From assembly GCF_000242635.2 (NCBI RefSeq), contig NC_017770.1:124001-188000 (forward strand): DNA of 64,000 nt. Reading direction: 5' to 3'. Source of the stretch: Solitalea canadensis DSM 3403. GTDB taxonomy: Bacteria; Bacteroidota; Bacteroidia; Sphingobacteriales; Sphingobacteriaceae. Of this stretch, positions 49,288 to 53,242 are shown one piece after another. The notes under the pieces were generated by a model. That model saw only the letters and a list, made by a program, of their open reading frames with translations. It was not told the origin of the DNA and ran no database searches. The translations under genes and the position numbers were made by a program. The first letter of the stretch is position 1. Every line of letters begins with the position of its first letter.

Positions 49288-50169
49288 TCATTCGCTTGGA
49301 TATCCAAAGGTTTTATTTATAAATGTAATGATGAACCTGCTAAGCCCCTTTTTCCAACCCCAAAAAATACTTACCCCAAAACCAGAAATACTGAGTAGAA
49401 AGAACAGTACTTTAGAGAGTAATGGATAGCTATTTTTTTCGTAAATAAGCCAAAGAATATAAAATGAAACGATTGTAATGAATGCAATCAATAGCCAAGA
49501 TGAAATATTTGCCAAAATTTCAGTTCGTTTTTTAAAATTTGGAATAAAATTCTCCATCAATATGAACCTATCTGGGCTTAACAATGCTTTTTTTAAGAAA
49601 GCTATCTCTATTGCTTTTAATGAGATAACATTTATGAAATCGTCCTCCGTAAATGGAAATGTTGCTTCCCAAAGTTCGATATACATTTCATTTATTCGGT
49701 TATCATCAGGATTTTCATTTTTTGCAAGAAACTGATAGACTAATGATATCTGGTGATAATCGCCCTTACTATTGTAATTGCCAGTCAGAATATTCCTGAA
49801 AGTATCCTTAATTTTCTTATCTATGGGATTAGCTTGGGAATATGTTACATTGATAGTTTCCCTAATCCAATGAACAGGAAGATTAAATTTATGCACTGCA
49901 CAAACAAGGCTAAAAACTATGAAATTATCATAAATCCAGTGACTTTCCTTATTGATTTTACGTTTTGAAAATTGATTCAGAATTTGTTCTGCGTGTACTT
50001 TATTATTCGTCTTAACACAAATAATTAAACTGACCGCTACTTCATTCGCATTATGCGTTTCTAGTGAATAGTTAGCTACAGGTTCATACAATATCTCATT
50101 TAGGAGAGGTGCCAACGGAGATTGTTTTAGTCGCTGTAAGTATGCTGAATGCTCTTCTATATAAACCAT
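49288..50169 (-). CDS. Membrane effector of the Argonaute system
   Basis: 293 residues. Residues 1-215 are predicted soluble and largely helical with no motif I recognise (TIR, SIR2 and nuclease signatures are absent). Two membrane helices follow at about 221-243 and 252-271, then a basic amphipathic tail (WKKGLSRFIITFINKTFG). The ATG lies inside the end of the Argonaute gene (overlap 50157-50169), so translation is coupled. Inactive long Argonautes are known to be paired with effectors, some of them membrane proteins that kill or depolarise the infected cell. By context this is such an effector. The mechanism is inference. Confidence 0.75.
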   Translation of the reverse strand: MVYIEEHSAYLQRLKQSPLAPLLNEILYEPVANYSLETHNANEVAVSLIICVKTNNKVHAEQILNQFSKRKINKESHWIYDNFIVFSLVCAVHKFNLPVHWIRETINVTYSQANPIDKKIKDTFRNILTGNYNSKGDYHQISLVYQFLAKNENPDDNRINEMYIELWEATFPFTEDDFINVISLKAIEIAFLKKALLSPDRFILMENFIPNFKKRTEILANISSWLLIAFITIVSFYILWLIYEKNSYPLLSKVLFFLLSISGFGVSIFWGWKKGLSRFIITFINKTFGYPSE

Positions 50170-52403
50170 TTTTTGTTTCTTTGGGACTTAATAAACGAAG
50201 CATTCCACCCATCAATTGACTTTAATTTGTTAAGTTGTTCAGTGATCAACGAGGCGTAAAATAATGTCACAGGTAGTTGTGAGGGTTTGAAAGTTCGATA
50301 GGATATATTTGTTAATCGATAGACCTGTTGAACAATATATGAAGCATCAGTGAAAGTTGATTTACGGTGTATCCTTATTAATAATGGACCTGTAAAGCCT
50401 TGCTTATCAGTTTTTACATCTTCTGGTCCTTTGAGTTGGAGAAGGCATACTCCTGGTTCAAGCATTAAATTAGTTCCTCGTGCAGGCGTAAGCTTTCCTT
50501 TTACATGGCTGGTGTATCGAGATGACAGACCTTTTTGATCGAGATCAAAAATCATATACGGATGATGTTCACCAAAAGACACGAAAGCAAATTTTATATC
50601 ATATTGAGGATATTGAGCAATCAATTTTCCCACAACCTCAACTTCAAGGTCTTTCATGGGTTTAAAAACATGGAAGATAATACGGACAATTTCTCTATCA
50701 TTCCATGCCTGCTCTTTTGATATTATATCAATAGAACCCTTTAGACTAGTCAGCAATTCCTGAAAATAATCCTGATAAGCAACTTCTTTTGATTTATTGC
50801 TAAATATATATTTACCGTCAGCGTTGAAAAAAGTTGTAATTCCCACTACTTTGTGCTGCTGTGCACCTGCATAAATATTATCGCGGATTAGCGAGCTACC
50901 GATGCCAACAATAAGTTCGTGAGCTATGTTTGGACTTGACGGCAAAATCCATGGCGTTCCTCCAAGCTTAGCGTATATTTGTAAAGCGCAGGAATCCAAG
51001 ATAAATTTCGGATTTCTTGCATTTGTTTCTTTTATAAACTGTACTGTTATAGCATGTTGAAGTAAATATGATTTTGCTAACCAGTAAATATCCTCAGACG
51101 GACTATTCCTTTTGAACTCTTCTTTCGTTTCTATAATCGCTATATCAAAATCTTTATTGGTTAGCTCTACTGCACCTTTTATCGCAGTCATAAAACTGTC
51201 TTTCGTAAATGAATCTACTTCCACGAAATGAAAATCTATGGCGAGGAGACGATATAGCTTCAAAATACCTTGTGTGAATGTCGGAGCTTCGCTAAAACCA
51301 TCTTTGAGACGACCAAGAAATTGTGTAAATGCTCCACTAGAATTTCTATGACAGACAACCAAAACTTTTGGATGGCTTACTTCAAAATATTTTCCATAAT
51401 CATACGGTCCAAACTGCGCTAAGCCTTTTATTGGTGAAGAATCCGTCTTTGTAAAAGATATATCGAAAAGGTACTTTGGGCTTTCAAGTTGAAGTGTTGG
51501 AAACTCGACTGTGCTGTTTTTAGAAATTAGAAAAGTAAATCCATCACCATTCTTGTACTCAATTTCTGAAATTACCTTAGATATTTGAGAAATTTCTTTA
51601 TTTAAAATATAAGGGTCATTTCTCGAAAACTCCTTCTGCTTGACAGTTGATAATATACTTTCAGCTCTTGTTGCTCCTAACACAAATTCCAAATATAATC
51701 TGATGTTATCATGGGTCTTATTCAGATAAAGATCTTTTAAATTAAAAGTTTGGTTACCATCATTTGTTTCAACAGTAGCAACGGAATCATACGATGAAAT
51801 AACCCGGCCAATTGCTTGAAATGTTGGCGCTACTACTTCTTGGCTATTTTCATATTTTATTAATCTGGCCACTTCAAGCGTTGATATATCAAACCCTTGT
51901 TCCTGTAGCCATTGGCAATTTTGTCTTAAAGCCCATTTATAAGAACTACCGATAATCAGTAAGAATTTTTTTCTTCCATTAATTTCTGAACGTTTAATAT
52001 CAATCTCGTTTAACTTTTTGTATGAGATGGTAGACTTTAAATTATTAGGTAACTCATCAAGAATGAGGTTGTGTTCATCTTTCGTAGAAGGGAAGGTGAA
52101 AGGATTAAAAGTTGGTTTAATCTTGGGAAACTGATTCTTAAAGGCTCGAAAAAATATATGTCTGATCAGAGATCCAATAATCAGGGGCTCTTCATCGACT
52201 TTAAGTGTTATCAATTCACCTAAGATGGTGAGATTTTCTTCTGCAGGTGAAATATAGATGTATTCGCCTTTTTTAAAAAAGGAATAATTCTGATTGTGTT
52301 CTTTACGAAGTTGGTCTAGTTTACCATCACTCCAGGGTATTCTTTGAATGTTGAATTTATCAAATGAAAGTTCAATTGAGAATATATTACTTGCAAGGTT
52401 CAT
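50157..52403 (-). CDS. Long prokaryotic Argonaute, predicted catalytically inactive
   Basis: 748 residues. The MID domain (about 345-480) keeps the guide 5'-phosphate motif: Tyr440 and Lys444 (IYWLAKSYLL), Gln455 (TVQFI) and Lys479 in the hallmark QIYAKLGGTPWIL. The PIWI domain (about 495-748) has the characteristic strands and ends LPVTLFYASLITEQL, but the first catalytic Asp is Gly502 (ELIVGIGSS instead of VGID) and the third is replaced around 578-580 (IIFHVFKP instead of HRD). So it should bind a guide and target but not cut. The N-terminal half (about 1-340) would hold N and PAZ-like domains; I cannot delimit them. The loss of catalysis and the coupled membrane-protein gene point to the long-B type. 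Tree placement needs alignment. Confidence 0.9.
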   Translation of the reverse strand: MNLASNIFSIELSFDKFNIQRIPWSDGKLDQLRKEHNQNYSFFKKGEYIYISPAEENLTILGELITLKVDEEPLIIGSLIRHIFFRAFKNQFPKIKPTFNPFTFPSTKDEHNLILDELPNNLKSTISYKKLNEIDIKRSEINGRKKFLLIIGSSYKWALRQNCQWLQEQGFDISTLEVARLIKYENSQEVVAPTFQAIGRVISSYDSVATVETNDGNQTFNLKDLYLNKTHDNIRLYLEFVLGATRAESILSTVKQKEFSRNDPYILNKEISQISKVISEIEYKNGDGFTFLISKNSTVEFPTLQLESPKYLFDISFTKTDSSPIKGLAQFGPYDYGKYFEVSHPKVLVVCHRNSSGAFTQFLGRLKDGFSEAPTFTQGILKLYRLLAIDFHFVEVDSFTKDSFMTAIKGAVELTNKDFDIAIIETKEEFKRNSPSEDIYWLAKSYLLQHAITVQFIKETNARNPKFILDSCALQIYAKLGGTPWILPSSPNIAHELIVGIGSSLIRDNIYAGAQQHKVVGITTFFNADGKYIFSNKSKEVAYQDYFQELLTSLKGSIDIISKEQAWNDREIVRIIFHVFKPMKDLEVEVVGKLIAQYPQYDIKFAFVSFGEHHPYMIFDLDQKGLSSRYTSHVKGKLTPARGTNLMLEPGVCLLQLKGPEDVKTDKQGFTGPLLIRIHRKSTFTDASYIVQQVYRLTNISYRTFKPSQLPVTLFYASLITEQLNKLKSIDGWNASFIKSQRNKKWFI

Positions 52404-52413
52404 TTAAATAACG

Positions 52414-52509
52414 CTATTGGTTAGATGCTGCTTCTATAAAATCGATTTTTTTTACTTCTTTCTGATTTTCGCCTAAGTCTACGATGTCTTTAATAGGTAG
52501 TTTCTTCAT
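52414..52509 (-). CDS. Small 31-codon ORF upstream of the Argonaute gene
   Basis: Encodes a charged peptide (MKKLPIKDIVDLGENQKEVK followed by KIDFIEAASNQ), stop codon TAG, 10 bases before the Argonaute ATG and on the same strand. The ATG is the first after the candidate promoter at 52568-52598. Composition is protein-like (amphipathic, no repeats), unlike random AT-rich spacer. It could be a third component, an antidote-like peptide, or a leader ORF that controls Argonaute translation. No homology recognised. Confidence 0.4.
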   Translation of the reverse strand: MKKLPIKDIVDLGENQKEVKKIDFIEAASNQ

Positions 52510-52517
52510 AATTAAGA

Positions 52518-52545
52518 GTTGATCAAAATAAATAATAATTGATCA
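52518..52545. promoter_or_regulatory. Paired TGATCA palindromes, possible operator
   Basis: Two TGATCA sites (within TTGATCAA at about 52519-52526 and ATTGATCAT at about 52538-52546) lie on either side of an AT-rich spacer, 8 bases or more upstream of the small ORF start. Spacing of about two helical turns suits a dimeric repressor. The binding protein is unknown. Confidence 0.35.
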
Positions 52546-52567
52546 TTGTAATTAAATAATTTATCAA

Positions 52568-52598
52568 CAAATCATAGTTTAAGCATTTTATTTCCAAA
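52568..52598 (-). promoter_or_regulatory. Candidate promoter of the Argonaute operon
   Basis: On the minus strand: TTTG (52595-52598), 18 bases, then TATGATTTG (52568-52576). This resembles TTTG/TAnnTTTG with one extra base in the -7 box. It is 59 bases before the small ORF. Confidence 0.4.
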
Positions 52599-52640
52599 AA
52601 CTAACGTTATATTATTTGAACTTTGGTTGTACTAGAAAAT

Positions 52641-52662
52641 GTTCAGTGTAGCGTCACTTTCG
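52641..52662 (+). repeat. REP-like end, copy 1 (inverted relative to copy 2)
   Basis: GTTCAGTGTAGCGTCACTTTCG is the reverse complement of copy 2 at 52959-52980 with 20 of 22 bases identical. The two bracket the transposase remnant. Confidence 0.75.
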
Positions 52663-52683
52663 GTAAATAGCTATAAAATTATA

Positions 52684-52882
52684 AGTGAGGTAGAAAATCG
52701 AAAAGAGTTGTATACATCCAGAAGAATTAATCACTAATCGGTTTATGCAACAGAAATTGGACTATCTGCATAATAATCCGGTTACAGCAGGCATTGTTGA
52801 CGAACCTGAGCATTATCGGTACAGCAGTGCGAGAAATTACGCAGGACAACCAGGTTTGATTGAAGTTGAGTTTTTAGAATAA
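52684..52882 (+). pseudogene. Remnant of REP-associated Y1 transposase (IS200/RAYT-like)
   Basis: The C-terminal part of a TnpA-REP type transposase is recognisable in two frames: SEVENRKELYTSRRINH-stop, then shifted by one frame at about 52733, NRFMQQKLDYLHNNPVTAGI followed by VDEPEHYRYSSARNYAG and LIEVEFLE-stop (52880-52882). The block QKLDYIHNNPV.AGIV..PE.Y.YSSARNY is diagnostic of this family. The N-terminal catalytic HUH and most of the protein are missing, so it is inactive. Confidence 0.85.
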
Positions 52883-52956
52883 ACGTTATAGATTTTTTCT
52901 CGTGTAAAAGTTAGTTGAATGCTTTCGGCCGGACAGAGTCCTCTGTTGTATGTTCA

Positions 52957-52989
52957 CTCGAAAGTGACGCTTCGCTGAACACTTTCGAG
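52957..52989 (+). repeat. REP-like palindrome, copy 2
   Basis: CTCGAAAGTG (52957-52966) pairs perfectly with CACTTTCGAG (52980-52989) around ACGCTTCGCTGAA. REP-associated transposases act on such palindromes. An additional small hairpin (ACAGAG/CTCTGT) lies just upstream at about 52933-52946. Confidence 0.8.
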
Positions 52990-53035
52990 GACGGGGGGTA
53001 AACAGACACAATAACTTATTTCTATTGTAATAACA

Positions 53036-53242
53036 TCACACAGATTCCTTATCACTCTTCATAAACAGTGAAAATAAAAGTCCACCCATTACAGCTCCGT
53101 AAACAGTACTGTTTAATGGTTTCGAAGTGATGAGACAAGTCCCCGAGCTGCATCCGATTTGCTGCCAATAGAAATAACCTGCCACTGCACCTGCAGCTAC
53201 ACCGATAATGGTGAGCCAATACTTTTTAACGTACTTCTTCAT
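53036..53242 (-). CDS. DUF6132 small membrane protein
   Basis: The frame extends to 53305, but the ATG at 53242 (MKKYVKKYWLT) gives the family length of 68 residues. One helix (IIGVAAGAVAGYFYWQQ), then GCSSGTCLITSKPLNSTVYGAVMGGLL, the DUF6132 hallmark with two conserved Cys, and a second helix. It overlaps the preceding gene by 17 bases. Found in sulfur-handling clusters; function unknown. Confidence 0.85.
   Translation of the reverse strand: MKKYVKKYWLTIIGVAAGAVAGYFYWQQIGCSSGTCLITSKPLNSTVYGAVMGGLLFSLFMKSDKESV

Follow-up and report, generated by a model that had tools for sequence, protein, structure and literature searches.

The locus

The single-contig, 5,202,069-base genome of Solitalea canadensis DSM 3403 (G000) contains, in the window analysed here (the whole 64,000-nt stretch at bases 124001-188000), the tail of a gene for a REP-associated transposase (RAYT, or TnpA-REP) between two inverted palindromic sequences. 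This locus raises the question of whether gene and palindromes once formed a REP system, as suggested in an earlier note which called it a fossil BIME-type element, or whether the palindromes are host RNA structures, the ends of an insertion sequence or parts of duplicated islands. The features of the locus, in window coordinates, are as follows.

52623-52698, minus strand: left REP unit, inverted and decayed (model R1, 20.2 bits; inverted repeat)
52665-52714, plus strand: possible upstream part of the RAYT gene, strongly decayed (aligned with the G003 RAYT only as gapped DNA; ambiguous assignment)
52715-52882, plus strand: RAYT (TnpA-REP) C-terminal remnant of 55 aa and a stop, with Y motif YLHNNP
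52921-52998, plus strand: right REP unit, well preserved, 78 nt (model R1, 96 bits; BLAST copies)
52931-52941, plus strand: right unit hairpin 1, GGAC-aga-GTCC (covariation)
52957-52989, plus strand: right unit hairpin 2, CTCGAAAGTG-acgcttcgctgaa-CACTTTCGAG (perfect inverted repeat, covariation)

The fossil gene is a 55-residue fragment (HPEEL..EVEFLE) that occupies a single open frame, 52715-52882 including the stop. The earlier note had described it as a frameshifted C-terminal fragment of a RAYT; it is indeed a RAYT C-terminus, with 46 of its 55 residues identical to the RAYT of the congener Solitalea longa (G003) by tblastn, but it is open in one frame, and a frameshift cannot be demonstrated. 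Positions 120-146 of the 146 in NCBIfam NF047646 (REP_Tyr_transpos), a general rather than subclass-specific RAYT model, match the fossil with an E value of 6e-6; the score of its 46-aa fragment, 26.2 bits, is below the 80-bit cut-off of that model, compared with 115.3 for the Mucilaginibacter arboris relative L049. Pfam gave no match in the 46-aa fragment at E<=1. The N-terminus and the HuH domain are missing, and with them the motif NH[LIV]H, which is NHVH in the nearest relative. The sequence before 52715 has been deleted or is too decayed for assignment, and tblastn found no protein-level match to the G003 RAYT in 52665-52714. Profile searches of the genome with PF01797 and REP_Tyr_transpos recovered no intact RAYT of the fossil's branch: PF01797 detected two IS200-type genes, and REP_Tyr_transpos detected the same two, the fossil and the gene L210, none of them above the cut-off.

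The palindromes on either side of the fossil belong to two copies of one unit in opposite orientations. The two inverted 22-base copies reported earlier lie at 52641-52662 and 52959-52980, and the perfect palindrome is hairpin 2 of the right unit, with a 10-bp stem (52957-52966 / 52980-52989) and a 13-nt loop. In the left unit hairpin 2 is still recognisable at 52632-52663 and hairpin 1 has been lost. With R1, a covariance model built from 10 own-genome copies that include the window's right unit, the left unit has an E value of 0.0068 over 170,742 bases and of 0.21 over the whole genome. The arms of the inverted repeat, 52629-52662 and 52959-52992, are 34 nt long and 85% complementary. When matches are scored +1 and mismatches -2, the best inverted repeat in 52600-53050 scores 19; the scores of 200 dinucleotide shuffles averaged 8.55 and peaked at 14.

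About 220 nt from the left REP unit is the start of a prokaryotic Argonaute (pAgo) gene, part of a two-gene locus at 49288-52403 on the minus strand. It encodes a 748-aa class II pAgo with a Piwi domain (PADLOC E 1.5e-233) and a partner of 293 aa that matches Aga_Unknown (E 1.8e-34).

The unit and its copies

The 78-nt unit consists of two hairpins, the first with a 4-bp stem and a 3-nt loop and the second, whose palindrome is the distal half of the unit, with a 10-bp stem and a loop of mostly 13-14 nt. The REP consensus that the earlier note had proposed building was obtained from an alignment of 10 own-genome copies and reads GCTTTCTGCC, hairpin 1 (GGAC-aga-GTCC and variants), TCTGTTTTATATTCA, hairpin 2 (a 10-bp stem with a ACGCTANCGCTNAA-like loop) and AACGGG. 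The genome search proposed there also gave further copies. The 22-mer is rare: when up to 3 mismatches are allowed it occurs at 6 places, of which the window accounts for 2, and a reversed-pattern control occurs at none. BLAST with the full unit gives 15 places at E <= 10, including two in the window, and the covariance model, itself built from 10 of its places, finds 45 at E<=0.05 and 60 at E<=10. Units were also detected by this model in 3 congeners and in other genera.

Sequence variation among the copies was followed in 46 own-genome matches from the window and 14 other stretches; two of these matches, both in L116, overlap each other on opposite strands. The stem of hairpin 1 switches between GGAC/GTCC, GGTC/GACC, AGAC/GTCT and AGTC/GACT in these matches, and hairpin 2 has 24 distinct 5' stems, with 17 copies perfect over 10 bp. 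The GT[AG]G sequence was absent, by eye, from the hairpin feet of the aligned units.

Compensatory changes occur in both stems. Three alignments were used: A1, an unconstrained, structure-blind MAFFT alignment of the 10 own-genome copies; A2, the 46 own-genome matches; and A3, 29 matches from G001-G004. A2 and A3 were fitted to the structure of the model, which favours pairing. Both-sided change was present in 8 of 14 pairs in A1, with a covariation score of 0.311 compared with 0.156 for shuffled alignments (0/500), and slid controls had at most 3 such pairs each. Four of five measures in A1 exceeded all 500 shuffles, the number of further pair types being unexceptional (66/500). The corresponding values were 12 of 14 pairs and 0.467 versus 0.182 shuffled for A2, and 11 of 14 pairs and 0.479 versus 0.132 shuffled for A3.

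Greater conservation of the loop than of the stem was not borne out by counting: mean pairwise column identity for stem and loop was 0.64 and 0.63 in A2, and the loop was only somewhat more conserved in A1 (0.72 and 0.76) and A3 (0.60 and 0.70). Loops nevertheless retain parts of [AT]CGCT..GCT.AA, with an identity of 0.95 per column for the final AA. The form [AT]CGC[TC]..GCT..A is present in 6/10, 21/46 and 11/29 copies in A1, A2 and A3, and the exact loop ACGCTNCGCTNAA in 4, 5 and 8, respectively. A search for G.U wobble on the unit strand as a sign of an RNA role had the opposite outcome, the own-genome matches containing 29 G.T and 48 A.C mismatches (p 0.04).

Arrangement and genomic position

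Inverted pairs of the unit occur elsewhere in the genome. Two are bare head-to-head pairs with a 16-nt spacer, L112 4720-4797(-)/4814-4891(+) and L118 1613-1691(-)/1708-1785(+), and wider-spaced pairs enclose the 3' end of a RAYT in the window, in L114 (3117-3538) and in L115 (3980-4317). The tails in L114 and L115, identified from a DNA alignment made without a shuffled control and undetected at the protein level by tblastn, comprise only the last few codons and the untranslated stretch that follows, whereas 55 codons remain in the window. The units are thus multicopy, form inverted pairs and are mostly intergenic (3 of 46 overlap an ORF of at least 100 aa), as is characteristic of BIMEs and REPINs. 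The designation of the locus as a fossil BIME-type element is supported by these pairs, but the REP is an atypical one and not of the GTAG type.

The units have a preferred orientation with respect to neighbouring genes. On the tail side, 34 units have an ORF of at least 100 aa no more than 250 nt away, and it is the 3' end of the ORF that faces the unit in 30 of these, compared with 7 of 21 on the head side, although these counts are based on mechanically predicted ORFs and count duplicates within Rhs islands repeatedly. Four stretches, L110, L111, L112 and L116, hold 25 of the 46 own-genome units; L110 and L112 contain DUF6443/RHS_repeat genes, and L111 and L116 resemble them by BLAST. A further 6 units are in L113. 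Some units in the Rhs-type stretches are parts of long duplications, as judged from BLAST, and others lie outside such stretches, in L082, L101, L104, L117, L118, L119 and L120.

In the Rhs/YD-repeat islands, REP units directly follow the stop codon of a small gene at several places, and the 11 units of L110 and the 5 of L111 are on the minus strand throughout. A tandem array of four units occurs in another genus at L125 1111-1708 (-) (G004:C34), with start-to-start distances of 174, 180 and 177 nt.

Related RAYTs and their loop types

Relatives of the fossil were found in 25 of the 60 genomes searched, the own genome included; of the RAYTs that the earlier note had proposed to look for, relatives therefore exist, but an intact own-genome member of this branch was not found. 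The reading in that note had hung on the existence of other palindrome copies and of a related RAYT, and the nearest RAYT lies between the same units. This is the RAYT of G003, which is nearly complete, has one in-frame stop near its start and the HuH motif NHVH, and is located between units L123 1608-1680(-) and 2336-2414(+). G014 has a 183-aa RAYT, with NHVH and YLHQNP, that is also situated between units. In the seven non-own genomes with matches of both kinds, a unit lies within 1 kb of 5 of 38 RAYT matches, where 0.13 would be expected based on counts read off the RAYT and unit search results. Whether a genome has units and whether it has RAYTs were not significantly associated in the set of 60 (Fisher p 0.12), and many RAYTs in these genomes carry another REP type.

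That other type was characterized at 80 named RAYT loci, the best 80 of 555 retrieved with the TTTGYAA-type RAYT of M. arboris (L049) as query, which biases the proportions that follow. Unit matches at these loci numbered only 2 and were weak (E 0.45 and 0.75). Perfect-stem hairpins of at least 7 bp occur at 7.05 per kb within 350 nt and at 1.26 per kb beyond 900 nt. The core TTTGYAA has 351 anchors in 62,395 near bases versus 134 in 156,122 far bases, and its flanks pair in 86, 84, 82 and 77% of cases near the genes versus 46, 35, 34 and 35% far from them (distances 1-4). TTTGYAA with stems of at least 4 bp is present near 71 of the 80 loci and far from 11, compared with 7 and 0 for the control TTTCRAA and 18 and 2 for the near variant TTTAYAA. 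One pair type accounts for 72-79% of pairs at the three stem positions beside the core. On the 31 gene sides with two TTTGYAA hairpins no more than 130 nt apart, the distal stem exceeds the proximal one in 17 and falls short of it in 6, with equal lengths in 8; the more frequent short-then-long order resembles the window's unit.

The expectation that all RAYT relatives carry the CGCT-type loop was not borne out. Among 111 RAYT loci, which include the 80 named ones and share the bias of their selection, and at least 3 of which are counted twice (L049/L130, L050/L161 and L038/L190), pattern matching gave this loop within 400 nt in only 5 (2/111 in far flanks), TTTGYAA hairpins in 82 (15/111 far) and neither type in 24. 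The CGCT-type loop also occurs at three RAYT loci of other genera, L029, L031 and L061, where the stems that carry it are quite different.

The type of loop near the gene is clustered in the RAYT phylogeny, which comprises 43 sequences. The CGCT-type loop, present in 7 rows, requires 3 changes on this tree compared with 6.6 when shuffled (0/500). All 7 rows fall in one branch of 11 (90/89, not starred), whose remaining 4 rows include one with TTTGYAA hairpins; the seven do not form one clade, and a single change sufficed in 0% of bootstrap trees. The nearest row to the fossil is the G003 RAYT (96/97). The tree includes 25 of 31 processed genome-search loci (the fragments L028, L043, L044, L052, L053 and L075 were omitted; L027, a neighbouring match of the L049 locus, is not among the 31) and 18 of 20 hand-picked named loci, from the 80, that passed a length filter; the loop labels of L036 and L040 were assigned by hand. 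At L027/L049 in M. arboris, the C-terminal coding part of the RAYT is tandemly duplicated, with REP hairpins separating the two copies.

Origin of the locus

The locus is very probably a dead REPtron, in which a group-5 (subclass 2.6) RAYT once lay between two inverted units, with an orphaned REP population elsewhere in the genome. This reading draws on the remnant of the gene and its inverted units, on the copies and inverted pairs dispersed through the genome, on compensatory change in both stems, on the RAYT tails that units enclose elsewhere in this genome and on RAYTs similarly placed in relatives. Against it, the fossil has no catalytic HuH part and scores far under the NF047646 cut-off. 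Mobility and recognition we infer from the RAYT literature: the intact enzyme, a HuH/Y1 single-strand nuclease, would have bound the units as folded single-stranded DNA and would have cut and rejoined DNA near them, and units may thus have spread singly or as inverted pairs, the RAYT gene itself presumably sitting in the spacer of such a pair. Searches of this genome having revealed no intact cognate enzyme, its units are probably now immobile and decaying, or are retained for a host role at the 3' ends of genes. On this reading the genome is a clear example of REP units that have persisted after the loss of their enzyme.

A dead REPtron does not preclude a host role. Alternatively, the units could be mainly host-useful RNA structures at gene 3' ends, mRNA-stabilising or terminator-like, with the adjoining RAYT incidental. 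The prevalence of ORF 3' ends on the tail side compared with the head side argues for this, as does the excess of A.C over G.T on the unit strand, which would correspond to G.U in the transcript of the facing gene; many of the 34 tail-side cases, however, are duplicated copies in Rhs islands, and the signal from wobble pairs is weak. By eye, hairpin 2 is not followed by a U-tract in the direction of transcription, and Rfam has no family matching 52400-53200 at E<=5. Given also the association of units with RAYTs in several genomes and the RAYT tails inside two further inverted pairs, this alternative is unlikely.

It is very improbable that the locus is a decayed IS200/IS605 insertion with the hairpins as its ends and the dispersed copies as its MITEs. 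A Y1-family remnant with hairpins on both sides is what such an insertion would leave, but the hairpins are inverted copies of one unit, and the Y motif of the remnant, YLHNNP, is not the Y...Q of class 1 (motif table, PMC6006769). Moreover, the two intact IS200-type genes of this genome encode other proteins, and each is in other sequence surroundings. That the palindromes arose by chance, or that the units are duplicated parts of Rhs islands spread by recombination, is scarcely credible: the concentration of more than half of the own-genome matches in four stretches holding or resembling Rhs-type genes, and the long duplications to which some belong, are in its favour, but neither version accounts for compensatory stem changes or for units outside Rhs-type stretches, in 3 congeners and in other genera.

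Recognition of the units

In the available parts of PMC8266576, recognition tests are reported for proteobacterial enzymes. E. coli TnpA-REP requires GTAG and a bulge in the stem but accepts altered loops; the enzymes of S. maltophilia and Marinomonas depend on particular bases of the loop. For the Bacteroidota family, the drift of paired stems together with a loop type that tracks the RAYT tree fits recognition of folded single-stranded DNA. A more specific and rather doubtful proposal is that Bacteroidota group-5 RAYTs recognise REPs mainly by loop and shape, with a branch-specific loop type (CGCT-type or TTTGYAA), a stem that drifts while remaining paired, and two-hairpin units inverted around the gene. 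It is weakened by the similar identities of stem and loop and by the dominance of one pair type at the three stem positions beside the TTTGYAA core. Such a rule would differ from that of the E. coli enzyme, which depends on GTAG and the stem bulge but not on the sequence of the loop. With its naturally occurring compensatory stem variants and its full-length relatives, this family supplies ready substrates for the question of specificity.

Relation to known systems

Subclass 2.6 of TnpA-Y1 (Bertels group 5) is described in the available part of Quentin 2018 (PMC6006769) as mostly from Bacteroidetes, with the Y motif YIH[QN]NP and with non-GTAG flanking structures, copied elsewhere in the genome, that are atypical and weaker ('atypical secondary structures'). 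The fossil's YLHNNP agrees with this motif, having L for I at position 2 as do several relatives, and its non-GTAG flanking structures have copies elsewhere in the genome. Y motif and palindromes thus fit subclass 2.6, and the fossil is a remnant of a member rather than a working member, the window's gene being dead. Architecture is not given in the available part of that paper; here the unit has two hairpins, with a strong distal 10-bp stem. This two-hairpin architecture, its covariation and the clustering of loop type on the RAYT tree are added here. None of the entries listed in a limited literature search named this unit.

Like canonical GTAG REPs, BIMEs and REPINs, as described in parts of PMC3733652 and PMC8266576, the units are short intergenic palindromes in inverted pairs with a RAYT nearby, and complementary stem changes are described there too. 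Unlike a canonical GTAG REP, the unit lacks the GT[AG]G foot, is longer, has two hairpins and has a loop longer than most. The locus shares with IS200/IS605 the HuH/Y1 enzyme family and terminal hairpins, but the Y motif and the arrangement of the ends differ and no autonomous mobile form was seen.

Two further palindrome-bearing loci were observed. L210 1369-1971 (G000:C1, ~4.599 Mb) is a RAYT-like gene of 200 aa with NHMH and YIANNP; a GTAG...CTAC double-foot palindrome lies across its predicted start and another lies in frame after the HuH motif, a layout much like the description of subclass 2.4. At L007 / L212, the repeated REP-like palindromes CCGTTGGTTnAAACCAACGG and GCCGTCTGCTTTAGCTGACGG precede an IS200-like gene.
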